Assembly (NCBI RefSeq): GCF_028752835.1
Contig: NZ_CP087952.1
Location: 124,001 to 188,000, forward strand
Direction of reading: 5' to 3'
From: Desulfosarcina sp. BuS5
GTDB taxonomy: Bacteria; Desulfobacterota; Desulfobacteria; Desulfobacterales; BuS5
DNA length: 64,000 nucleotides
Shown: piece after piece, positions 17,348-31,394 of the stretch
How positions within the stretch are numbered: the first letter of the stretch is position 1
Layout: every line of letters starts with the position of its first letter
Notes under the pieces: model-generated
Told to the model about the DNA's origin: nothing
Databases searched by the model: none
What the model saw: the letters and a program-made list of their open reading frames with translations, nothing else
Position numbers and translations under genes: made by a program

Positions 17348-18491
17348 TTAAATATTTAAAGCAATCCATTTTTTTAACAAGATATCCTGGATTATATATT
17401 TTCCATTTTTTATTAAAATTTCTTTCTCAGACAAACTTTTCAAGCACCGTGTGACAATGGAAGCTGTTTTAATATTAACGGTGATTAAAGCTTCTGCAAA
17501 AAAAAGGTTTTGTCCATCATTGAGCAATACAAGCTTTAATGTTTTTTTTTGATTGATGGATAGATTGTCCCACAGCATTTGACATTCAAGATGTTTTTGT
17601 TCAATCATAGAACGTTCAATTTTGCTTATCGTTGCATCATTCCAAGGAGTTTGCTTCAATTCTCTCCAGAGAAAAAAACAGAACAATTGAATATACATTG
17701 GGTGATTTTGAAATTGTTCAACAATCTGTTTTAAATTATCATTCTCAATGGAAAAATTTCCGCATTTAAACATTTTTTTCATCCAGAGAATATAATGCTT
17801 TGTTTCAATTTCTTTAAGCGGAAAACTTGCTGCCTGCTGATAAAAGGCTTTTTTTTGTGATTTGAACATTGCTGTAAGTAAATGCTGTTGACTTCCGGAG
17901 AAAATGTAACAGATATTAGAATGCTGCTGAACATAGGATCTTAATTGTTTTTCAAACAAATCAGCGTTTGTATATTTAGCCAATTCCTGGAACTCATCAA
18001 AAGCAATGACAATCTTCCTTTTCTCAGAAAATTTTTCAAGCAGTTCCATAAGGTTTTTTTAAAATCAAATTTTCATCCGCAGCCTTAAAAGATGGAGCAA
18101 TGGTCGGTGAGCTTGTGGCTGGATCAATGCTTATTTGAAAAGAAAATTTGTTAATGCTGTTTTTCAAAAAGTTTAATAACTTGTTTGTATTTGATTCCAA
18201 AGCATTTAATTGTTGGAATACTCTTGTAATAAATTCTTTTTCAGAAGTCGTGCCGTAAAGATCTATATACAGCATTCCAATATCAAGCTTTTGTTCTTTT
18301 ATGTTTTGAAAAACTTGCTTTATTAATGAACTTTTGCCTGTTCGTCTATGGGAGTACAGCAAAACGTTTTGTGAGGCCGTAATAAACTCAAGCAGTTCTC
18401 TTTGCTCTTTTATTCTGTTGCAAAAAGAGAGACCTGTTACAAAATTGCTGTAAGTAAAAGGGTTCTTCATTTCAGCTCCATAATTACACAT
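17348..18491 (-). pseudogene. AAA ATPase broken by a frameshift
   Basis: Two adjacent frames together form one ATPase of about 380 aa of the archaeal-type ATP-binding family. The N-terminal part (18491-18036) holds Walker A SHRRTGKSSLIKQ; the C-terminal part (18049-17348) begins with the Walker B region IVIAFDEFQEL and sensor SGSQQHLL. The break lies in a run of seven A (minus strand) near 18057; with six A the frames join as LILKNLMELLEKF. A sequencing slip, a true pseudogene or phase-variable tract are all possible. Such ATPases often come with mobile elements. It is AT-rich compared with its neighbours. Confidence 0.8.
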
Positions 18492-18913: not shown

Positions 18914-19012
18914 TTGAATAGGAAAATTTTTTTACCGTATTATAACTTGGTGTCTATTATGCATTCCTCCATCTTATTCCAGGTGGAGCTGTTTTTTCAG
19001 AGTGGGGAAATT

Positions 19013-20227
19013 GTGAATATCAGACAGGTCGATAAATCAAAATTATTATTAGGCAATAATACAGTTGAAATGCTCTTTCAGGCTCACAAGGATGCCTTAT
19101 GGATACTGGAAAATTTGGGTGTAGGGTGTAAACAGCCGGACATGCAGGAAGCTTTTCAAAAATTTGAAGCGGAAGGGCTGGCGGTTGTTTATGAAAATCG
19201 GGTGTATATTATGTCTGACCTGGTTGAAAAATGCCTTAAAACGGTTCCCTCTGTTCCTGACTTCTTTGTGCCGCTGAACAGCTTTTTTATCGGTGGTACA
19301 GCCCCGTACATTTATGATGATAAGGCGGCTAAAGGAGGAGTTATTCCAACGGCCGCTCATGTGAAAAAAATTGTTCAAATAGCGGAGAAAAATAAGGTAG
19401 TTGCCGGTATGGGGCGTGGAGTAAAACTGAAAGATGAAGTTGAACAGATGAATATAATGGATGAAAACTGCTCTAAACCGCTCTATTTTGCAGTAACTTC
19501 GGATGCAGCCCTTGAAAGAGCCAAAAAGATTCATGAGAAGAGAAAAAATGTCATGATCGTGTTTTGCCTTACACGTCCCCCTTTGGAGGTTAATGAGAAT
19601 TTTTCCGAACAATTTGTCAGGGTAGCAAAGGCCGGACTCCCTCTTTTCATTTCTGCCATGCCGATGGCCGGTATAAGCGCGCCATACTGTTATAATGGAG
19701 TTTTGTCCATGACCCATGCCGAGGTGCTGTTTGGGATCTGCGTAGCGCAATTGCTTAACCCTGGGACAACCTGCATTCATGCCGGATACCCGACCATTGC
19801 CGATCCACGGATTGAATACAACCCCAATTACGGCCTGATCAGTCATAACATGTTAAACATCTTAATGGCCCATATGAACCTTATGTTGGATCTTCCTTCG
19901 TTTCAGAGTGCCGGCACCACCCATGAAGAGCATCTTACGGATCGTGCATTTGACGATGCCGTGATGGGACAGGCCCTTTGTAAGAAATATGGGACTCACA
20001 TGATCCGTCATCCGTTTGCCTTTCTCCGGTACCTAATTGATTTTTCATTTGCCAAACTGGAGAAGTGCATCCAAATCGCAGAAGAAGTCACAGCAGAGGA
20101 TGCACCGGATTTCGAAATGCCGGTTTATGATGAAAGAAGTATGGAATCCATTCAAAATATCGGCTTAGGAATGTATATGGACGATTCGCTCACAACCGCC
20201 AACCTTGGAAAAATCTTTGTTGATTAA
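19013..20227 (+). CDS. Trimethylamine methyltransferase (MttB) superfamily protein, short form 1
   Basis: Presumed methyltransferase moving a methyl group from a substrate to the corrinoid protein of this locus. The 404-aa form from GTG at 19013 aligns with the start of its paralogue at 22820 (VNIRQVDK / MNIVDNQY) and has GGGGA upstream; the open frame runs back to TTG at 18914, with ATG at 18959 as another option. Paralogue-shared motifs are GGTAPYIYDD, AMPMAGISAPY, HAEVLFGICVAQLLNPG and RHPFAFLR. There is no in-frame amber codon, so it is a non-pyrrolysine member. It is shorter than the pyrrolysine TMA enzyme (about 495 aa). Confidence 0.85.
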   Translation: MNIRQVDKSKLLLGNNTVEMLFQAHKDALWILENLGVGCKQPDMQEAFQKFEAEGLAVVYENRVYIMSDLVEKCLKTVPSVPDFFVPLNSFFIGGTAPYIYDDKAAKGGVIPTAAHVKKIVQIAEKNKVVAGMGRGVKLKDEVEQMNIMDENCSKPLYFAVTSDAALERAKKIHEKRKNVMIVFCLTRPPLEVNENFSEQFVRVAKAGLPLFISAMPMAGISAPYCYNGVLSMTHAEVLFGICVAQLLNPGTTCIHAGYPTIADPRIEYNPNYGLISHNMLNILMAHMNLMLDLPSFQSAGTTHEEHLTDRAFDDAVMGQALCKKYGTHMIRHPFAFLRYLIDFSFAKLEKCIQIAEEVTAEDAPDFEMPVYDERSMESIQNIGLGMYMDDSLTTANLGKIFVD

Positions 20228-20317
20228 TCGTCAAAACCCATAAGGACTTGACTCGATCGTTTTGACCGGAGTCATTACAAACAATATATTAAGGAACTGG
20301 GAATAAAGGAGTCACGA

Positions 20318-21934
20318 ATGTGTGGAATTGCAGGATGTATTGGTGCAAGAGATGATGAAACCGTCAATAGAATGCTAGATGCCCTCCCCCATAGGGGGCC
20401 AAATGACAGGGGCATCCATCAATGCCAAAATATGGTATTCGGCCATACGCGCCTGTCTATTGTAGATGTTGCCATGGGCCACCAGCCCATTTTGGCAAAC
20501 GGTGGGAATGCCGGCATCATTTGTAATGGAGAGATCTATAATTTCAATAAACTTAGAAAAACTCTTGCGCCTAAATTTCGCTTTAAAACCAAATCCGATT
20601 CCGAGGTCATACTCCACTCGTATCAAAAAAAAGGGTACGAATGTGTCAAAGATCTGGACGGTATGTTCGCCTTTGCCCTGTTTGATGGTGAAGATTACAT
20701 GCTGGCAAGAGACCCGATTGGCATTAAGCCATTATATTACGGCTATCAAAGTGACAAAATGTACTTCAGCTCTGAGCTTAGTGCCATGAGCCATGCCGGC
20801 CTGGATCAAGTGCATGAATTCCCTGCGGGGCATTATTACACCCCTCAAGACGGATTCGTAAAATATTATGAGATCCCTAAAATTGAAGACCATCTTCTTA
20901 CCGATATTGATGAAACCTGTGAGTTGATTCGTGAAACGTTTATTCGCTCCGTCAAAAAACGGCTGCTGGCCGATCCGGAAGTACCTGTGGGTTCGTTTTG
21001 CAGCGGAGGTCTTGACAGCAGTCTGGTGGCTGCCATTGCGGCTAAGGAGATTCCGAATCTGCATACATTTGTTGTCGGAATGGAAGATGAATTCGGTGAT
21101 GTAAGCGATGATGTCAAGGCGGCCCGCATCGCTTCCAAACATATCGGCTCGACGCATCACGAAATGCTCTTTACAGAAGACGAATACTACGAAGCGCTTC
21201 CCATCGTAATCAAAAAACTGGAAAGCTATGACCCATCTCTGGTGCGATGTGCCATCCCATGCTATTTCACATGCAAAAAGGCTGCCGACTACGTCACCGT
21301 GGTACTTACGGGTGAAGGTGCAGACGAACTCTTTACCGGTTATCACTATATGAAACACTTTCCCTTTGACAAGCTCAACCCGGAGGCAAGACGCTGCATA
21401 GGCAATCTACATAATATTAATCTTCAAAGGGCCGACCGCATGGGCATGCTTTTCAGCCTGGAATTACGGGTGCCTTTTCTGGATGTGGAAATGATTGATC
21501 TTTCCATGAAAATTCCGCCGGAGCTTAAAATACGCGAACATAACGGGGCCAAGATAGAAAAATGGATTTTCCGAAAGGCATTTGAAGGGACCGGATACCT
21601 GCCTGATGATATCCTCTGGCGCTACAAGGTCCAGTATACCCAGGGGGCCGGCTGCGAGAGTCTGGGAGAAAGACTGGCAAAAAAACAGATAACCGAGGAT
21701 GAATATGAACAGATCAAGGCGGACAACCCCAAGGCGACTATTAACAGCCCGGAAGCCGCTTATTATTTTAAGATTTTCCGCCAGTTTCATCCCCAAGACT
21801 CCATTCTCGGCTCCATAGGTATCTGGACCGGGTTTGATTTTGAGGAGGAAAGAGAACGGGTCCGGGGAACTATAGACGGGGATCTGAAACATAACCACAA
21901 GGAAAACGATAGTAAGGAACGTAAAGTTGCCTGA
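20318..21934 (+). CDS. asnB: Glutamine-hydrolysing asparagine synthase (AsnB family)
   Basis: A 538-aa amidotransferase. Cys2 of MCGIAG is the glutaminase nucleophile; the N-terminal domain (1-200) is class II GATase and the C-terminal part is an ATP-pyrophosphatase synthetase with SGGLDSS near residue 229 and the TGEGADELF motif. The family makes asparagine from aspartate and glutamine, but members in special pathways amidate other carboxylates. It lies 91 bp after the first mttB gene and 15 bp before a hydrolase gene, inside the methyltransferase run, so a pathway-specific role is possible though not shown. Confidence 0.92.
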   Translation: MCGIAGCIGARDDETVNRMLDALPHRGPNDRGIHQCQNMVFGHTRLSIVDVAMGHQPILANGGNAGIICNGEIYNFNKLRKTLAPKFRFKTKSDSEVILHSYQKKGYECVKDLDGMFAFALFDGEDYMLARDPIGIKPLYYGYQSDKMYFSSELSAMSHAGLDQVHEFPAGHYYTPQDGFVKYYEIPKIEDHLLTDIDETCELIRETFIRSVKKRLLADPEVPVGSFCSGGLDSSLVAAIAAKEIPNLHTFVVGMEDEFGDVSDDVKAARIASKHIGSTHHEMLFTEDEYYEALPIVIKKLESYDPSLVRCAIPCYFTCKKAADYVTVVLTGEGADELFTGYHYMKHFPFDKLNPEARRCIGNLHNINLQRADRMGMLFSLELRVPFLDVEMIDLSMKIPPELKIREHNGAKIEKWIFRKAFEGTGYLPDDILWRYKVQYTQGAGCESLGERLAKKQITEDEYEQIKADNPKATINSPEAAYYFKIFRQFHPQDSILGSIGIWTGFDFEEERERVRGTIDGDLKHNHKENDSKERKVA

Positions 21935-21949
21935 GCATTTTCGCTCACA

Positions 21950-22804
21950 ATGCATATGAATTTAACAATATTAGGTTCCGGCGGATGTGCCGTAATCCCG
22001 AAACCATTATGCGGCTGCAATGTTTGCAGGGAGGCCAGAAGAAAAGGGCCTCCTTATGAAAGAACAGGCCCATGCGCCTATATTTCCGATTCGAACCTTT
22101 TGATCGATACTCCGGCCGAGGTTGCAACCCGTTTGAACCGTGGATTGATAGATGCAGTCGATTTTTTGACTTTTACTCATCTTGACCCTGACCATGTGGA
22201 AGGGTTCCGGGTTGTAGAGCAGATAGCACTCGACTTTCGCACCTGGGAGGCTTATCCGGACAAACAGATTCAATTGGTTTTGCCTGAGCTACTGATGGAA
22301 CGGGTAAGGGATATACGATCGGTTTATGGTCCTTTGGTTGAATTTTATGAAAAACAAGGATTCATTAAATCCATTTCCTATAAAAACAGCATAAAAATCA
22401 AGCAGATCCTGGTATCTGCAATTCCTGTAGATCGTGGAAATCAGACGGTATATATATATATATTTGAAAAAGACGGCCGGAAAATAGTTTACGCTCCCTG
22501 TGATATCAAGCCTTTTCCTGAAGAAAAAAAAGAAGTACAGGATGCTGACCTTGTTGTTATTCAGCCCGGAATTTTTGAAGACGGGCTGAAGCATAATTTT
22601 AAATATCCTGATAATCATATTTCACGAACAACGCTATATACATTTGAAGAGACAATTGCGCTTTGCAAAAGAATTCGGGCCGCTAAAATTTTGTTTGTTC
22701 ATCTCGAAGAATACTGGAATAGAAGCTATGCTGATTATTTTACAATGCAATCTGAATATGAAAATATTCAGTTCGCCTGGGATGGCATGCGGTTGAGAAT
22801 TTGA
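21950..22804 (+). CDS. PhnP-like metallo-beta-lactamase fold hydrolase
   Basis: A 284-aa protein of the PhnP/PqqB-like group. It opens with LTILGSGGCAVIPKPLCGCNVCREAR, where the CxCxxC cluster resembles the structural zinc site of PhnP (a cyclic phosphodiesterase). The metal-site motif reads THLDPDHVEG: the second His of HxHxDH is Asp. Later metal ligands may be DIKPF (about 183) and HISRTT/VHLEEYW. The substrate is unknown. Spacing of 15-16 bp on both sides ties it to asnB and the second mttB in one operon. Confidence 0.8.
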   Translation: MHMNLTILGSGGCAVIPKPLCGCNVCREARRKGPPYERTGPCAYISDSNLLIDTPAEVATRLNRGLIDAVDFLTFTHLDPDHVEGFRVVEQIALDFRTWEAYPDKQIQLVLPELLMERVRDIRSVYGPLVEFYEKQGFIKSISYKNSIKIKQILVSAIPVDRGNQTVYIYIFEKDGRKIVYAPCDIKPFPEEKKEVQDADLVVIQPGIFEDGLKHNFKYPDNHISRTTLYTFEETIALCKRIRAAKILFVHLEEYWNRSYADYFTMQSEYENIQFAWDGMRLRI

Positions 22805-22819
22805 GGATAAAATAAAACA

Positions 22820-23998
22820 ATGAATATTGTAGACAATCAGTATCTGGAAAAAATACATACGGATGCCCTTGCGGTGCTCGAAGAGGTCGGGGTTAAATCT
22901 GTTTCAAATAAAGTTCGGAAAATCTTTGAAGACACCGGGCTGGCAGCCTATGACGAAACCACCGGCCATATCCATGTTCTTGCCCCCCTGGTTGAACAGG
23001 CTCTGACGACGATGCCCAAAAGGGACCAATACTGGATACCTGACAATTCATTCGGGGTCGGCGGCACCGCCCCTTTTTTATATGACGATAATACCGGCGA
23101 ACTGGTAGTTCCGACTTTTGAGCATGTTGCAAAGATTTCGCAAATTGTCAATCAGACCTACGTGGTCGATTTTATGGCGCGTGGCGTGCTGATACCCAAG
23201 CAGGAAGCAAAGGTTATGGATACAATTATCGCCAATTGTGAAAAACCGATCTATGTGGCGGCTCTCACAGAGGAGGGGATTGCAAGGGCGCAGCAGATTT
23301 ATGAATCAAGGGGTAAGCTTACAATCCAGTTTTCCATTATAAACAGTCCGCTTAACATTATTGAAAGCATGGTCGACCCATTTTTGTCCTGTGTTGAAAA
23401 AGGGATACCGATTTATGTTTCCACGATGCCGATGGCGGGACTCTCGGCGCCCTATTCCATGTCGAGCCTGCTTACCCTGACCCATGCAGAGGCTCTTTTC
23501 GGAATTACTCTGGCCCAACTGGTAAATCCCGGTATTATGACGGTACATGCAGGGCTGCCCTCGGTCGCCAGTATTAAAAACAACTATGCGGTTGATATGG
23601 GCCTTGTTTCATTTAATATCGCCAACCTTTTGATGGAAAAGGTCAACAGCCGGCTGAATCTTCCTTCAATTCAGACCGCCTGTACCACCAGTCAGGAAAA
23701 ACCGAATGAAATTGCAGAAAAAGAAGCTGTTTGCGGTTATGCTTTGATGAAGAAATATGGATTTCATCAAATGCGGCATGCTTTTGGATTTTTAAAGGAG
23801 CTGGTTTCGTTTTCCATAGCAAAGCTGGAAAGGCATATAGAACTTTGCCGGCAGACAGGCCCGGAGTTGGCGCCGGATTATCAGATTGACCCGTATGATC
23901 CTGAAGGGCTGGAAGCAATCAAGCGGAACAGCAGCCAACCCAATTATATGCGTGATGATCACACTTTAAAAAATACGGGAAAAGTTTTTTTGGTTTAA
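22820..23998 (+). CDS. MttB superfamily methyltransferase, short form 2
   Basis: 392 aa, paralogous to the gene at 19013 along its full length: FGVGGTAPFLYDD, STMPMAGLSAPY, HAEALFGITLAQLVNPG, ALMKKYGFHQMRHAFGFL. It presumably methylates the corrinoid protein encoded 37 bp downstream. No amber codon interrupts it. The presence of two divergent short paralogues suggests two substrates, two sequential demethylations, or a heteromer. Substrate unknown; quaternary amines such as glycine betaine are typical for non-pyrrolysine members. Confidence 0.87.
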   Translation: MNIVDNQYLEKIHTDALAVLEEVGVKSVSNKVRKIFEDTGLAAYDETTGHIHVLAPLVEQALTTMPKRDQYWIPDNSFGVGGTAPFLYDDNTGELVVPTFEHVAKISQIVNQTYVVDFMARGVLIPKQEAKVMDTIIANCEKPIYVAALTEEGIARAQQIYESRGKLTIQFSIINSPLNIIESMVDPFLSCVEKGIPIYVSTMPMAGLSAPYSMSSLLTLTHAEALFGITLAQLVNPGIMTVHAGLPSVASIKNNYAVDMGLVSFNIANLLMEKVNSRLNLPSIQTACTTSQEKPNEIAEKEAVCGYALMKKYGFHQMRHAFGFLKELVSFSIAKLERHIELCRQTGPELAPDYQIDPYDPEGLEAIKRNSSQPNYMRDDHTLKNTGKVFLV

Positions 23999-24034
23999 TA
24001 TTTTTATCAAAGTCAGGTAAGAGAGGTAATAAAA

Positions 24035-24670
24035 ATGGATAAGATACAGCCCCTTATAGATGCTGTAATCAATGGGGATGAGGATAAAGTTAAAGTGATA
24101 GTACTGGAAGGAATAACCAAAGGGGAAAAAGCGGCTGACATTATGAACAAGGGGCTTATCGCCGCGATGGACATAGTGGGTGGAAAGATGGAAGCAGAAG
24201 ATATGTTTATTCCTGAAGTCCTGATGTCGGCAAGGGCTATGAAAGCAGGTGTAAATGCTCTTCAACCTCACTTGACCAAAGACGATGCCAAGGACTTGGG
24301 CGTAGTGGTTATCGGTTCCGCCCAGGGGGATCTTCATGATATTGGTAAAAATCTTGTAAAAATGCTTATGGAAGGCGGCGGCTTTTCGGTTATTGATTTA
24401 GGCACGGATGTTAAGCCGGAAAAGTTCCTGGAAGCGGTTCGTGAAAACAATGCTGACATTGTCGGAATATCCGCCTTACTGACAACAACCATGCTCAGCA
24501 TGAAAAATGTCATTGAAGCTCTGGAATCAGCAGGTCTTCGCGATCAGGTAAAAGTTCTTGTAGGAGGCGCTCCGGTTACCAAAGAGTATGCTGAGGAAAT
24601 CGGCGCTGATTGTTATGGGGCTGACGCAGGGTCAGCCGTAAGAATTGCGAAATCACTTCTTTACAAATAA
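24035..24670 (+). CDS. Corrinoid methyl-carrier protein (MttC/MtbC type)
   Basis: Carries the methyl group on cobalt between substrate-specific methyltransferase and tetrahydrofolate methyltransferase. The 211-aa protein has the N-terminal helical cap (1-85) and the cobalamin-binding Rossmann domain with lower axial ligand His101 in GDLHDIGKN, followed by DLGTDV and GISALLTTTM, and a C-terminal VLVGGAPVTKEYAEEIGADCYGADA. It is the only corrinoid carrier in the locus, so all three MttB-type proteins probably use it. SD-like AGAGAGGTAAT precedes the ATG. Confidence 0.95.
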   Translation: MDKIQPLIDAVINGDEDKVKVIVLEGITKGEKAADIMNKGLIAAMDIVGGKMEAEDMFIPEVLMSARAMKAGVNALQPHLTKDDAKDLGVVVIGSAQGDLHDIGKNLVKMLMEGGGFSVIDLGTDVKPEKFLEAVRENNADIVGISALLTTTMLSMKNVIEALESAGLRDQVKVLVGGAPVTKEYAEEIGADCYGADAGSAVRIAKSLLYK

Positions 24671-24785
24671 TTTAGAAAATTTGTAACAGTTTACTATTTT
24701 AATCTGATCACACCTTAAAGCTTGTAGACAATCAGCTTCTTTCAAAAGACCAAACTTTTACTAAAAATTTAGGAGAAAAAATATA

Positions 24786-26216
24786 ATGGCAAATATTTGC
24801 AGCCATCAGCAGGCGTTAAATAGTCCGTATGCAGGTAAAGTTTCCGAAGGGCAATGCCAAAAACTATACTGGGCCTGTCTGGAAATTTTGGAACGTACCG
24901 GTGTGTCCCTGCATGATCAGGAAGCAGTGGATCTTTGTAAAAAAGCCGGAGCGCTTGTAACCGACGGAAACCGGGTGCGGATTCCGTCCGGCCTGGTAGA
25001 AAAGGCATTCAGCACAGTGCCCAAAAGCATAACTTTGTATGACCGAGCCGGCAACCGGGCAATGCAAGTGGGAGGGCATCGCTGTTATTTCGGAACAGGT
25101 TCTGATTGTCTTCATCTTTTGGATCACCGTAGCGGAAAACGGCGGCGGGCTGTTTTAAAGGATATCGTTGAAGGCATGATTGTTTGTGACGCGCTGGAAA
25201 ATATAGATTTTGTGATGTGCATGTTCCTGCCCTCAGATGTGCCTCAGGAAAAATTAGACCGTTATGAAATGGAGGCCATGCTTAACAATACAACCAAGCC
25301 GGTTGTTTATGTGACAACAGAGTTTTTCGGCTGCCGGGATGCTGTTAAAATGGCTGAAATTGTGACTGGAGGAGCTGATACGCTGCGCCACAACCCATTT
25401 GCAGTCTGCTATATCAATGTTACAACCGGCTTACGGCATAATAAAGAAGCCTTGCAAAAGCTTCTTTATCTCTCCGGCAAGGGGCTGCCTTTTACCTATA
25501 TCCCTTCTGCCCAGGGAGGAGTGACTGCTCCTATTACAATTGCGGGCGCTATGGCTGCCAACTATGCCGGCGTTCTGGCAGGCCTGGTACTATCTCAATT
25601 AAAACGTGAAGGCGCTCCGTTTATTATACCTGGCTGGGGGGGCAATATGCTGGACATGAAAACAATGGTGCAGCCCTATGCTGACCCGCAAAAAAGGGGA
25701 CAGGCTATCGATTTTGGCCATTACCTGGGGCTTCCAATGTTTAGCTTGGCAGGATGCAGTGAATCAAAATTGGTGGATCAGCAGGCCGCGGCTGAAGCAG
25801 CGCTTACCCTTTATTCTGATGTCTTGTTCGGCGGCAATCTTATCCATGATGTGGGGTACCTGGAGTCCGGCCTGAGCGGTTCTTTGCCCCAGCTTGTGAT
25901 CTGCAATGAAATTTTAAGCTGGCTGGAAGCTTTTATGAAAGGAATTGAAATAAACGAAGAGACTCTGGCGCTTGATGTGATTGATGAGATTGGACCTGAC
26001 GGGCAATATCTTGATCACCCGCACACCGCCAGACACTTCCGGGACCGCTGGTATCCAAAGCTTTTTGAGAGATCAAACTATGATGGCTGGGAAAATAAAG
26101 GGGGAAGTTCATTAGGGGAGCGGGCCGTCGGTAATGTGGATAAAATACTGGCGGAACATAAACCGGAACCGCTGCCTGACGATATTGCCAAGGCTGTCAG
26201 GGCAGTATTTGAATAA
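24786..26216 (+). CDS. MttB superfamily methyltransferase, long form
   Basis: 476 aa, close to the usual length of MttB/MtgB proteins and clearly more distant from the two short forms. Family features are the N-terminal helical region, YFGTGSDCLHLLD, ITIAGAMAANYAGVLAGLVLSQ and IPGWGGNMLDMKTM. The gene has a good SD (AGGAGAAAAAAT) and no in-frame amber stop, so it is a non-pyrrolysine type such as the glycine betaine methyltransferases. It follows the corrinoid gene by 116 bp and is followed by a MITE. Confidence 0.9.
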   Translation: MANICSHQQALNSPYAGKVSEGQCQKLYWACLEILERTGVSLHDQEAVDLCKKAGALVTDGNRVRIPSGLVEKAFSTVPKSITLYDRAGNRAMQVGGHRCYFGTGSDCLHLLDHRSGKRRRAVLKDIVEGMIVCDALENIDFVMCMFLPSDVPQEKLDRYEMEAMLNNTTKPVVYVTTEFFGCRDAVKMAEIVTGGADTLRHNPFAVCYINVTTGLRHNKEALQKLLYLSGKGLPFTYIPSAQGGVTAPITIAGAMAANYAGVLAGLVLSQLKREGAPFIIPGWGGNMLDMKTMVQPYADPQKRGQAIDFGHYLGLPMFSLAGCSESKLVDQQAAAEAALTLYSDVLFGGNLIHDVGYLESGLSGSLPQLVICNEILSWLEAFMKGIEINEETLALDVIDEIGPDGQYLDHPHTARHFRDRWYPKLFERSNYDGWENKGGSSLGERAVGNVDKILAEHKPEPLPDDIAKAVRAVFE

Positions 26217-26240
26217 CCGTTCATTCTTCTCAGGTTGAAC

Positions 26241-26365
26241 CTATAGATTGTCAGATAAATAATTTCACTGCGTTATCGGTCGTCGGGGTAGAGACGCAAA
26301 ATTTTGCGTCTCTACCCTGGCCTTGTGCCAAATTTTAAAATCAGGTTATTATGTGACAATCTATA
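26241..26365. mobile_element. MITE family 1, copy C
   Basis: Ends TATAGATTGTCAGATAA and TTATGTGACAATCTATA form inverted repeats. The interior contains AATTTCACTGCGTTATCGG and a perfect 32-bp hairpin at 26286-26317 (GGGTAGAGACGCAAAA arm). It sits inside the methyltransferase locus, between the long mttB gene and the methyl-THF methyltransferase gene, and may stop or weaken read-through. Confidence 0.8.
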
Positions 26366-26382
26366 AGGGCTCGCTCAAAAAC
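26366..26382. repeat. Solo end of palindromic element family 3
   Basis: AGGGCTCGCTCAAAAA, directly after the end of MITE copy C, equals the terminal repeat of the element at 52094-52252. No partner end is seen nearby. Confidence 0.45.
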
Positions 26383-26411
26383 CCTGAACCAGTAAAAAGG
26401 ATTACCAAAAA

Positions 26412-27206
26412 ATGATTATTATCGGTGAACTAATTAATACCAGCCGGAAAAGCATTGCCGCTATGGTGAAAGAACAGGATCAACCCGGAATACAGAAAGT
26501 GGCTTGCGACCAGTCAGCCAATGGCGCAAATTATATAGATGTAAACGCGGGAACATTTGTGGATAGTGAAGCGGAGCGTCTTAAATGGCTTATAACAACT
26601 GTGCAGAGTAAAACCGACTGCTCCTGCTGCATAGACAGTCCGAATCCTTCAGCTGTTGAAGCGGCACTGTCTGTTCATAAAGGACAGGCCATGATAAACT
26701 CCATTTCGCTTGAAAAAAAAAGATATGACGCCTTGCTTCCTATAATCGCCGGAACCGGCCTGAAGGTTATCGCTTTATGTATGAGCGATGAGGGTATGCC
26801 CGAGACTGCTGATGAACGGTTGAATATTGCTGATAAACTTGTAAACGGACTGGTGAAAAACAATGTTTTGCCGGAAAATATTTTTATCGATCCGCTGGTG
26901 CAGCCGGTGGCCGTCCGGACGAATTATGGGGTGGAGTTTCTGGATGCGCTTGAAAAGATAAAGACAGCTTTAAAAGGTGTTCATACTGTTTGCGGACTAT
27001 CAAATATCTCTTACGGACTTCCGGCGCGCAAGCTTATGAACAGAACCTTTATGGCTATGGCTATAGCAAAAGGGCTTGATGCCGCCATAATCAACCCTCT
27101 TGACAATAAAATTATGGCAAATATTTCAGCAGCTCTTGCGCTTGTGGAAAAAGATGATTTTTGCATGAATTACATCAAAGCGTACCGGGCGGGCAAACTT
27201 GCATAA
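26412..27206 (+). CDS. Methyltetrahydrofolate:corrinoid methyltransferase (MtgA/AcsE type)
   Basis: The 264-aa TIM-barrel pterin-binding protein has the family start IIIGELINTSRKSI, GANYIDVNAGT, the conserved SPNP and NSISLE segments, FIDPLVQP, and CGLSNISYGLP. It should transfer methyl between the methyl-corrinoid protein and tetrahydrofolate, the acceptor step of betaine-type demethylation. The RACo-like gene starts 4 bp after its stop, so they are co-translated. It is the expected partner of the mttB and corrinoid genes despite the MITE between them. Confidence 0.92.
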   Translation: MIIIGELINTSRKSIAAMVKEQDQPGIQKVACDQSANGANYIDVNAGTFVDSEAERLKWLITTVQSKTDCSCCIDSPNPSAVEAALSVHKGQAMINSISLEKKRYDALLPIIAGTGLKVIALCMSDEGMPETADERLNIADKLVNGLVKNNVLPENIFIDPLVQPVAVRTNYGVEFLDALEKIKTALKGVHTVCGLSNISYGLPARKLMNRTFMAMAIAKGLDAAIINPLDNKIMANISAALALVEKDDFCMNYIKAYRAGKLA

Positions 27207-27209
27207 ATA

Positions 27210-29057
27210 GTGCATAATATCGTTTTTAAAAATACAGGGGAATCAATAGCTGTTGAACATGCAACAACTATCCTGGAAGCATTGCAGCAGCGCTCCTTTT
27301 TTGTAAGAAGCGATTGCGGCGCTAAAGGTTTATGCGGCAAATGCGTTGTAAATGCCGGCCCCTCAAAAAATTTATCACCTGTAACTGAATCTGAAACCAC
27401 ACTTCTTACCCTTGATCAGCTTGCCTCCAACTGCCGCCTTGCCTGCCAGGCCAAAATAACGGGGGACATTACAGTATCTGTTCTTGAAGAGAGTGATAGC
27501 GGCAAAGGAATCGAGGCAAAAACAGACATTAGAAAAAAATATTTTACCAATCCCCTGGTTGAACGGATTTTCGTGCCGCGGGTTCAGGTTCCTGTTGATA
27601 ATAACGGGGTTTGTTTTGATCTGGCAGGTCTGATTTTAAACAGAGCATCCACGGTTCAAAAAGAAAAAATTTTTTTCAAAGAACCGGAAGTCCTGCGCCA
27701 GCTGGCCGGTCTTTCGGAAACTGAAAAAGAAATTACGCTGGTTTTTCATCGCCAAAAGGGTATTACTGCTGTGCTACCCGGTACAAGGGAGCCCTGCCTT
27801 GGACTATCCGTTGATCTGGGAACTACGACAATAGCTGTATATTTATGCGATTTTAAAACCGGTAAACTTCTATCAGCAAAATCAACCGCCAATCCACAGA
27901 GGTGTTACGGGGAAGATATTATAAGCCGAATAGCGGCAACAGGGCAGGCACCCGGAAATTTAAAAAAAATGCAGTCTCTCGTGGTGGAGGCAATCAATTC
28001 GACTGTCAATCTGTGCCTTGTAGAAGCAGGTTTTTCCAGTCTTGATATTGATGAAGCCGTTGTGGCCGGCAATACAACCATGGAGCAGATTTTTGCGGGT
28101 TTCCATCCCCGGGGGCTTGGCCGAGCGCCCTTTTTTCCTGTAAGCAGGCTTCTGCCTGATCTGAAGGCCGCTGATTTAGGGTTGAATCTGAATCCCGGCA
28201 CAAATATTCATCTTTTCCCGGTCATATCAGGATTTATCGGCGGTGATACCCTGGGTGTGATGTTGACTGAAGATGTCTATAATTGTAATGAAAATCTTCT
28301 TGTTATTGATATAGGAACCAACAGCGAACTGGTTTTAAGCACACACGCCGAAATATGGGCTGCCAGTTGCGCTACTGGTCCGGCTTTCGAAGGCGGTCAG
28401 ATTTCCTGTGGAACGAGAGCCGTTCCCGGAGCAATTTACAAAGTTGAGATCGACCCTGAAACCCGTGGCTTTGCGTACCGCGTTCTGGGAGAAAGTAAGC
28501 ATGCGGAGCCGACCGGAATTTGCGGTTCCGGCATAATCGATGCCATTGCGGCTATGCGAAAGACCAGGTTAATTCTGGAAAGCGGCTCGTTCAATAAAAA
28601 AATGCCGGAAGTTATCTTTAAAGAAAAAGCGGCCAAACAAAAGGTAGTCCTTATTAATAAAGAAAAAAACAAAGCCGGATTAGAAATAGCCATTACTCTC
28701 AGAGATGTCAGACAAATTCAATTAGCCAAGGCCGCCATGTGTGCCGGAATTGAGCTGTTGATGGAAAAAGCTAAATGCAGACGTCTGGACAGGACTGTTT
28801 TAACCGGAGCCTTTGGAGCTCAATTTAATTGGAAAAATGCGGCTGTTATTGGTATGCTGCCTGAGGCTGTCGCAAACAGCAAGATTATGCCTGAAAATAA
28901 TTTGGCCGGCGCGGGCTGTATCATGGCGCTTCTGAACAAGAAGAAAAGAAGAGAGGCTGTCAGGTTTTTAGACCATGTACAATTTACGGAACTTGCAACC
29001 GAGCCTGATTTTTCTGCAAAGTTTGAACAAGCTTTATTATTTCCGCCTATAGCGTAG
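27210..29057 (+). CDS. Corrinoid-protein reactivator (RACo-like, 2Fe-2S and ASKHA domains)
   Basis: ATP-driven reductive activator returning inactive Co(II) corrinoid to Co(I). The 615 aa start (GTG) with a [2Fe-2S] ferredoxin domain: Cys36, Cys42 and Cys45 in CGAKGLCGKC, plus Cys75 or Cys79. A linker leads to the DUF4445/ASKHA ATPase domain, with LSVDLGTTTIAVYL near residue 195 and LLVIDIGTNSELVL, and the late VLTGAFGAQFN. The single plant-type cluster fits RACo rather than RamA, which has two 4Fe-4S clusters at its C terminus. Confidence 0.92.
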   Translation: MHNIVFKNTGESIAVEHATTILEALQQRSFFVRSDCGAKGLCGKCVVNAGPSKNLSPVTESETTLLTLDQLASNCRLACQAKITGDITVSVLEESDSGKGIEAKTDIRKKYFTNPLVERIFVPRVQVPVDNNGVCFDLAGLILNRASTVQKEKIFFKEPEVLRQLAGLSETEKEITLVFHRQKGITAVLPGTREPCLGLSVDLGTTTIAVYLCDFKTGKLLSAKSTANPQRCYGEDIISRIAATGQAPGNLKKMQSLVVEAINSTVNLCLVEAGFSSLDIDEAVVAGNTTMEQIFAGFHPRGLGRAPFFPVSRLLPDLKAADLGLNLNPGTNIHLFPVISGFIGGDTLGVMLTEDVYNCNENLLVIDIGTNSELVLSTHAEIWAASCATGPAFEGGQISCGTRAVPGAIYKVEIDPETRGFAYRVLGESKHAEPTGICGSGIIDAIAAMRKTRLILESGSFNKKMPEVIFKEKAAKQKVVLINKEKNKAGLEIAITLRDVRQIQLAKAAMCAGIELLMEKAKCRRLDRTVLTGAFGAQFNWKNAAVIGMLPEAVANSKIMPENNLAGAGCIMALLNKKKRREAVRFLDHVQFTELATEPDFSAKFEQALLFPPIA

Positions 29058-29060
29058 CGA

Positions 29061-29777
29061 ATGACTGTTTTATCTGATATTAAAATCAAGCTTGATACCG
29101 AAGAATTGACAGCTTATCTTCATGAAGGTAAATCTTCCCGAAAACTGGTAACCAAAGCCGAAGAAGTCCTTAATGAATCAAAAAATCTATTGCAACCGGC
29201 CGCAGCGTATGAGCAAATAAAAATTTTGGAAGTAACTAATAACGCTGTTCTTTGTTCCGGTATAAATGCCCCCAAAGTATGGCTGAACATAGGGCAGTGT
29301 TCTGAGCTTATGAAAAAGGCGGCAGCGGCAATAACAAGTGTGGTTACTATCGGCTTTGAACTTGATAAAAGGGTAAAAAATTTGAATCTTCAGGGTGATT
29401 ACCTGTCAGCCTGGTTGATGGATGCTATCGGACTGATCGCTTTGGAGCAAGCTGTTTCGAAAATACAGCGTACCGCCGTAATCGAAGCTAAAAAAAATAT
29501 GTGGAGGACCGGGCCTTTTTTAAGCCCCGGCTCAATTGACGGCTGGCCATTATCCGAGCAAAAAAAGTTCTGCTCTCTTGTTCCCATTGATCGAATAGAC
29601 GTTCAGCTCAACAAATCGAATGTTCTTGTGCCTCTCAAGTCTGTTTCCGGAATCATTGGAATCGGACCGGAATATTCTTCGGGTAAAATCGAATCGATCT
29701 GCCGGTTTTGCGCGCAGTCTTCTTCCTGCCGCATAAGAGCGGCCAAGCTTAAAATGAAATTGCGAGGTTGTGAATGA
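29061..29777 (+). CDS. B12-dependent methionine synthase activation-domain-like protein
   Basis: The 238-aa protein resembles the reactivation (AdoMet-binding) domain of MetH, as often encoded next to corrinoid methyltransferases. Visible features are a central FELDKRVKNLNLQGDYLSAWLMDAIGLIALEQ helix region, the PFLSPGSIDGWPLSEQ segment (the RxSPGY-like loop), and a C-terminal cysteine cluster CRFCAQSSSCRIR that MetH lacks and that could hold an iron-sulfur cluster. It starts 4 bp after the RACo-like gene and overlaps the nitrilase gene by 4 bp. Role probably in corrinoid maintenance. Confidence 0.85.
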   Translation: MTVLSDIKIKLDTEELTAYLHEGKSSRKLVTKAEEVLNESKNLLQPAAAYEQIKILEVTNNAVLCSGINAPKVWLNIGQCSELMKKAAAAITSVVTIGFELDKRVKNLNLQGDYLSAWLMDAIGLIALEQAVSKIQRTAVIEAKKNMWRTGPFLSPGSIDGWPLSEQKKFCSLVPIDRIDVQLNKSNVLVPLKSVSGIIGIGPEYSSGKIESICRFCAQSSSCRIRAAKLKMKLRGCE

Positions 29778-30670
29778 AAGTTGTTATATATCAGACGAAT
29801 CCGGTTTTGCTGGATATAAAAACCAATCTTGAAAAGATAATCTCAAAAATTCAGATAGGCAAGGGAAAAGGAGCCAACCTTATTGTGTTTCCCGAACTTG
29901 CCCTGACCGGATATTTTGTCGGGCAAGATTACCATAAAGTCGCGCTGAAAATCGATTCTCCTGAAATCAAACGGCTTGCGAAGGCTAGCAAAGGGACTGC
30001 GGTAGTAGTCGGGTTTATAGAAGAATCGTTATCAATGAATTTTTATAATGCCGCGCTGATAGCAGTAGACGGAGAGGTTCGGTTTGCTTATCGCAAGCTC
30101 AATTTGCCCAATTACGGAGTTTTTGAAGAACGAAAATTTTTTTCAAACGGCAAGCGTGTGGTTGTTTTTAAGCTTTATGGATTCAATGTTGCCGTTTTTA
30201 TTTGCAACGATATGTGGCATCCGTCTCTTCCTTACCTCGGCGTAACCCAAAAAGCAGATATTTTTATCACCATTTTCAACTCATCAAAGGGATCTATGAC
30301 GAGTGAATTCGAAAATATAGAAAGCTGGGAAATTATTAACAAGTTTTATTCACGTATTTTCGGTGTTTACAATATATGCGCAAATCGTGTAGGTGAAGAA
30401 TGCTCTGCAGAAAATAGAAACACAGATGATCTTGCTGCAAACCAATATACCGACAGTTGTTTGGAAAATAGAAAAAAATACAATTTCTGGGGAGGTAGCG
30501 AAATTATCAATCCATACGGTCAGCTAATACAGAAAGGAGCTTTTTATCAGGAAGATGAAATCATCGGTAAAATTTCAAAGGATCTTCTTCGTCGAAAAAA
30601 GATAATTCTTCCCTATCTGAGAAATGATGATCCCTATTTTACGCAGCGAGAGTTAGCGCGCATTCTATAA
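29774..30670 (+). CDS. Carbon-nitrogen hydrolase (nitrilase superfamily)
   Basis: 298 aa with the complete nitrilase triad: Glu41 in VFPELALTGY, Lys108 in YRKLNLPNYGVFEE and Cys144 in VFICNDMWHP. The family hydrolyses amides or nitriles. The start codon overlaps the stop of the previous gene (ATGA), so it belongs to the methyl-transfer operon. It may act on an amide of the methylated substrate or be linked with the asnB product; both are inference. The insertion ENRNTDDLAANQYTDSCLENRKKYN near residue 215 is unusual. Confidence 0.88.
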   Translation: MKVVIYQTNPVLLDIKTNLEKIISKIQIGKGKGANLIVFPELALTGYFVGQDYHKVALKIDSPEIKRLAKASKGTAVVVGFIEESLSMNFYNAALIAVDGEVRFAYRKLNLPNYGVFEERKFFSNGKRVVVFKLYGFNVAVFICNDMWHPSLPYLGVTQKADIFITIFNSSKGSMTSEFENIESWEIINKFYSRIFGVYNICANRVGEECSAENRNTDDLAANQYTDSCLENRKKYNFWGGSEIINPYGQLIQKGAFYQEDEIIGKISKDLLRRKKIILPYLRNDDPYFTQRELARIL

Positions 30671-30815: not shown

Positions 30816-31394
30816 TTGAAGTTGAAAAGGATGATTGTTGCATCAAGATATTTAAAGCCAAACAGAAAAAAAATGGAAAACAATCACAGGAAAAAAACAA
30901 ATACAAAACGAGCAATATGTGATGAAGTACTTATCGCTATCAGGCGTATTATTCAATCGATTGATCTTCACTCTCGATACCTTGTGAGGCAGTTTGGCCT
31001 GACCGGTCCACAGTTGATTGTCCTGAAGGAGTTATCGAGGCTCGAAGAGGTGTCGGTAGGTGAAATAGCAAAAGCGGTCAGTCTCAGCCAGGCAACAGTC
31101 ACAGGTATTCTGGAACGTCTTGAAAACCGCAGACTGATTGTCCGACAGCGCAGCAAAAAAGACAAAAGGCGGGTTCTTGTTGAGGCAACTTCTGCGTCTA
31201 AACAGCTGTTGGACAAAGCGCCGCCCCCAATGCAGGAGCATTTTATTCAACAGCTTACAAACCTCCAGGATTGGGAACAGGCGATGATTTTAAGTTCGCT
31301 TCTGAGGATAGTCTCTATGATGGATGCAAGTAAAATTGAAGCGGCACCGATTCTCGTAGCAGGACCTATTGACGAGATAGAAGAGAATCTATAG
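30816..31394 (+). CDS. MarR family transcriptional regulator
   Basis: Winged-helix regulator of about 170-190 aa. The central part, VRQFGLTGPQLIVLKELSR, VSVGEIAKAVSLSQATVTGILERLENRRLIVRQ and DKRRVLVEAT, is the MarR wing-helix DNA-binding core. The long C-terminal tail is typical of the EctR-like subgroup that controls osmolyte genes. The start is uncertain: TTG 30816, ATG 30831 or ATG 30873. It lies 145 bp after the nitrilase and may regulate the methyltransferase locus. Confidence 0.85.
   Translation: MKLKRMIVASRYLKPNRKKMENNHRKKTNTKRAICDEVLIAIRRIIQSIDLHSRYLVRQFGLTGPQLIVLKELSRLEEVSVGEIAKAVSLSQATVTGILERLENRRLIVRQRSKKDKRRVLVEATSASKQLLDKAPPPMQEHFIQQLTNLQDWEQAMILSSLLRIVSMMDASKIEAAPILVAGPIDEIEENL

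Follow-up and report, generated by a model that had tools for sequence, protein, structure and literature searches.

Short MttB homologs without the corrinoid-docking tail share a conserved cassette with AsnB and hydrolases in Desulfobacterota

Introduction

Among the major osmolytes of marine sediments are methylated amines and betaines, whose use by sulfate-reducing bacteria is poorly known. In Desulfosarcina sp. BuS5, a 64,000-nucleotide stretch of the genome (GCF_028752835.1, contig NZ_CP087952.1, positions 124,001 to 188,000; hereafter the window, in whose numbering all positions are given) raises the question of why genes for an asparagine synthetase-like amidotransferase (AsnB), a metallo-β-lactamase (MBL)-fold hydrolase and a nitrilase should be embedded among those for corrinoid-dependent methyl transfer. 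The locus consists of ten co-directional genes on the + strand (~19013–30670) in the order mttS1-asnB-MBL-mttS2-corC-mttL-mtgA-RACo-(MetH-activation-like)-nitrilase. A first-pass annotation made from the sequence alone had taken the whole of it for a system of corrinoid-dependent methyl transfer in which three MttB proteins have equivalent roles and AsnB and the nitrilase may process the methylated substrate or its product. The families in its inventory (three MttBs, a corrinoid protein, mtgA, RACo, asnB, MBL and nitrilase) are confirmed. Here we show that the core of the cassette is formed by the two short MttBs (MttS1 and MttS2), AsnB, the MBL hydrolase and the nitrilase, and that the corrinoid module (corC-mttL-mtgA) is a replaceable insert separable from the short MttBs.

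Results

Two of the three MttB homologs lack the corrinoid-docking tail

The 4.18-Mb genome codes for only three MttB-family proteins, all of them in the window. Two of these, MttS1 (19013..20227, +; PF06253, E 2e-21) and MttS2 (22820..23998, +; PF06253, E 1.8e-29), are short proteins of 404 and 392 aa that are ~42% identical to each other and together form one clade in our tree (support 1.0). The start of mttS1 is placed at the GTG codon at 19013 because the family members (orthologs at 70–79% identity) are 404 aa long; the TTG at 18914 chosen in the first-pass annotation is over-extended. Structural models predict the MttB TIM-barrel fold for both proteins. The AlphaFold2 (AF2) model of MttS2 (pLDDT 89) aligns in VIA with Methanosarcina MttB (7xcl) at Z 38.7 and a root-mean-square deviation (rmsd) of 2.4 over 344 residues, and that of MttS1 (pLDDT 78) aligns with the barrel of the same structure at Z 33.3 and rmsd 3.2 over 341 residues. 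Residues 1–350 of the MttS2 model correspond to residues 18–394 of MttB, namely the N-terminal part and the barrel only. There are 41–43 residues past the barrel in MttS1 and MttS2, as against 88–103 in most complete full-length MttBs, and the tail stops ahead of the point where helices α19/20 would begin. In the MttB-MttC structure, the corrinoid protein is bound by a dimerization loop held by two anchoring C-terminal helices (PMC9842639); MttS1 and MttS2 are without these helices and most of the docking loop. They are not ordinary MttBs, and the three MttBs of the window are not equivalent.

The third protein, MttL (24786..26216, +; PF06253, E 1.4e-85, covering 29–490 of 500 model positions), retains 93 residues past the barrel with an intact C-terminal extension, and can be assigned from its sequence to the normal, full-tailed, non-pyrrolysine kind of MttB-superfamily corrinoid methyltransferases. 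The position equivalent to the pyrrolysine (334) is occupied by Cys in MttL and by Thr in MttS1 and MttS2, and all three score below the cut-off of TIGR02369 (346 bits against 525 for MttL); accordingly, none of them was retained as a candidate pyrrolysine-type trimethylamine methyltransferase. Like MtgB, the short proteins have retained a His in the active site at the position of MttB Tyr364. They also conserve H243 and an HxxRH motif; these were considered as a mark of the short clade and dismissed, since a group of ~480-aa MttBs with a partial tail has them too, and they thus mark a wider clade.

The cassette is conserved across Desulfobacterota

MttS2 homologs occur at 58 places in named genomes, at 62–81% identity except in truncated copies, and the records that carry them, where a group is named, are deltaproteobacterial/desulfobacterial or generically proteobacterial. 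Loci were chosen by MttS2 similarity and the comparison genomes are mostly metagenome bins; our counts refer to 43 non-duplicate loci holding both short mttB genes, all from Desulfobacterota, and, with many contigs cut within the cassette, counts of gene presence are lower bounds. Among 395 sampled genomes of the phylum, those with the two genes belong to several families, and Desulfonema magnum 4be13 (L096) and strain NaphS2 (L099) are among the cultured carriers. AsnB, in one of two swappable types, is present in 42 of the 43 loci, the MBL hydrolase in 28 and the nitrilase in 26, and the genes run co-directionally as mttS1-asnB-(flavoprotein)-MBL-mttS2-nit, separated by median gaps of 32–88 bp. 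Since dozens of genomes carry the cassette, this order is far beyond chance, and we rule out a fortuitous clustering of the window genes. The comparison with related genomes that had been suggested at the outset therefore places asnB and the hydrolase genes with the short mttB genes, beside which they are conserved. Beyond the phylum, plasmids yielded only ~22% identical relatives, the chromosomes of other phyla not having been searched in depth. A survey of the open-access literature found no publication joining MttB with AsnB or a nitrilase, and the cassette is apparently a conserved gene set of marine sulfate-reducing bacteria that the literature has not described.

The corrinoid module is exchanged for a flavoprotein

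The corrinoid module of the window centers on CorC (24035..24670, +; PF02310 and PF02607, with DxHxxG at 99–104), an MtgC/MtbC-type corrinoid protein that is the only PF02607 protein of the genome. Besides MttL, it includes the pterin-binding MtgA-type methylcorrinoid:tetrahydrofolate (THF) methyltransferase (26412..27206, +; PRK07535, 345 bits, cut-off 259), and is followed by a RACo-type ATP-dependent corrinoid activator (27210..29057, +), which has the 2Fe-2S and ASKHA domains typical of such activators, matches Fer2, Raco_middle and RACo_C_ter above their cut-offs and falls below that of the AcsV model. The next protein (29061..29777, +) had been called MetH-activation-like. This holds in part: its match to PF02965 is weak and below the family cut-off (18 bits against 25, E 0.002), but it is 28–30% identical to proteins of other loci that match PF02965, and relatives lying beside mttL2/mtgA modules match at 2.5e-9.

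Such a module is present in 13 of the 43 loci, either as corC with mttL (78–82% identical to that of the window) or as a second module (MetH-activation-like, mttL2, mtgA and corC) lying on the other side of mttS1. In 26 loci the operon instead contains FAD5, a SoxB-like flavoprotein of 443 aa closest to the sarcosine oxidase β subunit. Flavoprotein and corrinoid module never occur together (0/43) and four loci have neither (Fisher p 6.5e-8, uncorrected for kinship). Parsimony on the MttS1+MttS2 tree requires at least four switches between the two. This separability speaks against the first-pass view of the entire locus as a corrinoid methyl-transfer system. Given that the corrinoid system and the flavin N-demethylase replace each other among the loci, they appear to do the same job.

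The short MttBs also persist where an MtgC-type partner is lacking. Profile searches recovered no PF02607 protein from three genomes that keep both MttS1 and MttS2 (G464, a single contig, 98% complete; G324, 98%; G094, 95%), nor from three that keep MttS1 (G274, 98%; G466, 98%; G095, 95%). In all six, the MttB-family genes are short ones only, with no full-length MttB.

AsnB, nitrilase and the MBL-fold hydrolase

The AsnB of the window (20318..21934, +; PRK09431, 605 bits, cut-off 499), which we term type A, is by sequence a predicted member of the glutamine-hydrolyzing asparagine synthetase B family: MCGIAG with Cys2, R45, NGE at 70–72, D94 and SGGLDSS are all intact, giving a complete glutaminase site. 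Type A is found at 75–85% identity in 26 loci. Type B is ~30% identical to it, keeping the synthetase motifs and losing the N-terminal Cys. The two have been swapped at the same operon position at least eight times on the MttS tree. Because a version with an intact glutaminase site and one without its Cys are interchangeable, we infer that both should yield the same product, most simply an amide whose nitrogen comes from ammonia, with glutamine as the donor for type A and free ammonium for type B.

The nitrilase (nit, 29774..30670, +; CN_hydrolase, E 1.3e-32) has the Glu-Lys-Cys triad of nitrilase-superfamily amidases (E41-K108-C144), invariant in 25 orthologs, and is likely to be such an amidase. 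In one locus, a gene near mttS2 (L111:3525-5426) codes for a lipoprotein-like product that contains CN-hydrolase sequence in two stretches and has no ortholog-level relationship to nit. The MBL-fold hydrolase (21950..22804, +; Lactamase_B_2, E 6e-12) displays HLDPDH (HxDxDH) in place of HxHxDH, invariant in 31 orthologs along with CxCxxC, which points to an unusual metal site. Although it had been described as PhnP-like, a true PhnP phosphodiesterase is rejected on account of both this motif and its score (39 bits against a cut-off of 272).

Genomic neighbors of short MttBs beyond the cassette

Genes for short MttBs are found in the company of flavin DEMETHYLASES. When it is not paired with MttS2, MttS1 is encoded alongside SoxBDAG, a betaine transporter of the OsmF type and a large protein resembling GlmS. 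Its orthologs lie in or beside SoxBDAG sarcosine-oxidase-type operons in L052, L056, L050, L053 and L113, often with the OsmF-type transporter. The GlmS-like protein (1518–1535 aa; L052:1176-5783 and L118:13403-17959) combines a glutamine-amidotransferase-like start with SIS domains, and is a second type of class-II amidotransferase found with short MttBs. A third short-MttB group (28–30% identical, 416–453 aa; L060–L063 and L067) adjoins FAD-GcvT fusions resembling dimethylglycine dehydrogenase (690–830 aa) and APH/choline-kinase-like genes. The ~480-aa MttBs constitute a fourth group, which lacks corrinoid genes in its vicinity; two of its loci have an adjoining BCCT-like transporter, assigned by eye. 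OsmF/ProV-type betaine ABC transporters are situated beside or inside several cassettes. The co-occurrence of flavin demethylases and betaine transporters with short MttBs suggests N-methylated, betaine-like substrates.

The gcv operon downstream of the locus, previously read as a sign of a glycine-yielding substrate, adjoins no other cassette locus examined and therefore says little on the substrate. Matches to gcvT near other cassettes are only 22–27% identical and, where checked, are SoxA or FAD-GcvT proteins; as none of the other cassettes adjoins a standalone gcvT of the glycine-cleavage kind, the proposed link was dropped.

Discussion

Proposed function of the cassette

We tentatively propose, giving it somewhat less than an even chance of being right in full, that this cassette serves the catabolism of a betaine-like carboxylate that bears N-methyl groups and is imported by the cell. 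After uptake, AsnB would amidate the carboxylate of the substrate in an ATP-dependent reaction with glutamine or free ammonia, thereby reducing its charge, which would facilitate the processing of the N-methyl compound. MttS1 and MttS2 would take this compound as their substrate, and their acceptor would not be a protein of the MtgC type. In the window, MttL would demethylate the N-methyl compound, methylating Co(I)-CorC, from which MtgA would hand the methyl group to THF, and corrinoid that has become oxidized would be reactivated by RACo and the MetH-activation-like protein; in sister loci the flavin N-demethylase would carry out the demethylation instead. Finally, the nitrilase would hydrolyze the amide to the free acid and ammonia. 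While the conservation, the interchangeable modules and the loss of the tail are observed, in this scheme we infer both the chemistry of the short MttBs throughout and what AsnB takes as its substrate. The pairing of amidation with amide hydrolysis is the simplest reading of the AsnB-nitrilase combination, and this part of the first-pass proposal stands; its frame of three equivalent, corrinoid-dependent MttBs does not.

Several observations weigh against the amidation scheme. The PF02607 absences rest on profile searches, for which draft assemblies or single genomes were available, and every genome tested codes for the corrinoid iron-sulfur protein CFeSP (PF03599, CdhD-type subunits), so that another corrinoid acceptor for the short MttBs is possible. 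Some loci lack the MBL hydrolase and the nitrilase despite sufficiently long contigs. Type A AsnB passes the ordinary AsnB cut-off; aspartate could therefore be its substrate, and it might make asparagine after all. Furthermore, in two Desulfopila/Desulfocapsaceae loci (L116 and L117) asnB is missing and MttS2 is encoded next to an aspartase-like lyase, an arrangement that the model leaves unexplained. An aldo-keto reductase and a LysR regulator are also encoded beside the MttS2 ortholog in these two loci.

Alternative explanations

How far the short MttBs have departed from the corrinoid chemistry of their superfamily admits of several answers. It is possible, if less probable than the general scheme, that they left cobalamin behind entirely and carry out a corrinoid-free methyl removal or transfer on a betaine amidated by AsnB and later hydrolyzed by the nitrilase, with interchangeable flavin or corrinoid demethylases acting elsewhere in the pathway. 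More doubtful is that they methylate the CFeSP of the Wood-Ljungdahl pathway, rendering MtgC and MtgA unnecessary. The retained MttB barrel and the presence of both CdhD-type CFeSP subunits and RACo activators in all genomes tested are in accord with this, but CFeSP is general to these sulfate reducers, which makes the co-occurrence weak; moreover, no CFeSP gene was seen beside the cassette loci. The most conventional option, that all three MttBs are ordinary corrinoid methyltransferases acting as successive demethylases on one corrinoid protein, we regard as unlikely. They share the superfamily and the barrel fold, sit together with corC, mtgA and RACo in the window, and the short ones keep the MtgB-like His; nevertheless, MttS1 and MttS2 miss the docking tail, most loci are devoid of a corrinoid gene, and the short genes survive in genomes without an MtgC/MetH-type corrinoid protein or a full-length MttB.

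Other alternatives turn on AsnB. The cassette could be an aspartate-based counterpart of the N-methylglutamate pathway, in which AsnB uses aspartate to form a conjugate with a methylated amine, the short MttBs rearrange this conjugate, and it is demethylated by a flavin dehydrogenase or the corrinoid module. The affinity of type A to true asparagine synthetases, the potential of the Cys-less type B to accept a free amine and the aspartase-like lyase adjoining mttS2 in L116 and L117 would all fit, as would the association of MttS1 with SoxBDAG-like enzymes, which are relatives of N-methylglutamate dehydrogenase. However, the complete glutaminase site of type A points to ammonia, and the betaine-type transporters suggest quaternary amines, leaving this option, too, with little likelihood. 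Finally, asnB and the hydrolase genes might be housekeeping or nitrogen-scavenging genes that are carried along with no role in methyl metabolism, as the score of type A as a normal asparagine synthetase would allow. We consider this the least probable of the alternatives, given the near-universal presence of AsnB, its repeated replacement in the same position by a very different type, and the occurrence of a different double CN-hydrolase near mttS2 in L111.

Relationship to known systems

The mttL, corC, mtgA and RACo genes of the window resemble the MtgB/MtgC/MtgA glycine betaine system and those of MtpB, MtcB and MtyB, to which the window adds two short MttBs that lack the docking tail and are kept where an MtgC-type protein is absent. 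None of the described MttB-superfamily systems that we found includes AsnB, an MBL hydrolase or a nitrilase. In the MthK-MthB-MthC-MthA system of Eubacterium limosum, choline is phosphorylated with ATP before demethylation (PMC12155760); the amidation proposed here would likewise be an ATP-dependent activation of the substrate by a dedicated enzyme of the cluster, but the window has an amidotransferase and an amidase in its place, and other loci show that the corrinoid step is replaceable by a flavoprotein. The marine MtgBCDE split methionine synthase/betaine demethylase, as far as the consulted portion of its description goes, shares with the window an MttB-type protein, MtgC, a pterin-binding methyltransferase and a MetH-activation-like protein, as well as the lack of PF02574 in the genome, and that portion mentions no short MttB pair, AsnB or nitrilase (PMC12478193). 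The BuS5 genome has no PF02574 (homocysteine-binding methyltransferase) protein and a single PF02607 protein, and therefore no MetH; by analogy to MtgBCDE, CorC, MtgA and the MetH-activation-like protein might also serve methionine synthesis. The SoxBDAG sarcosine oxidase and dimethylglycine dehydrogenase pathways, as described, need neither an MttB-family protein nor AsnB, yet short-tailed MttBs repeatedly adjoin such flavin N-demethylases (SoxBDAG with MttS1, FAD5 with MttS1/S2, and FAD-GcvT fusions with the third short group). The cassette offers a gene set that can be put to the test in Desulfobacterota, cultured strains among them, and suggests substrate activation by amidation as well as a branch of MttB that may function in the absence of the B12 partner protein, the defining feature of the superfamily. 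It also cautions against scoring short MttB genes as corrinoid methyltransferases when metagenomes are surveyed.

Further features of the locus

From mttS1 to nit the intergenic gaps are, in order, 90, 15, 15, 36, 115, 195, 3, 3 and -4 bp. The operon-like spacing noted at first sight thus holds for six of the nine junctions (≤36 bp) and not for the three of 90, 115 and 195 bp. The last of these, between mttL and mtgA, contains a dispersed palindromic, miniature inverted-repeat transposable element (MITE)-like element (26240..26375, no strand assigned, ends approximate) with a perfect 28-bp palindrome as its core (26288–26315; 12 exact copies in the genome). Its outer sequence is common to three of the four copies read, and its RNA fold has a z of -6.1; in sequence it looks like a small mobile repeat. 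Its position makes co-transcription across this gap uncertain. Riboswitch control was dropped from consideration, as an Rfam search of the window returned a single tRNA and no riboswitch. Downstream of nit is a MarR-family regulator (30816..31394, +; PF12802/PF01047), with the gcv operon following ~510 bp past it; a MarR gene of the same family (cluster 18) adjoins nit in four loci (the window, L041, L048 and L105). Upstream of mttS1, an ATPase_2/AAA-type gene (17348–18491, -) is split into two overlapping open reading frames and is probably a frameshifted remnant.

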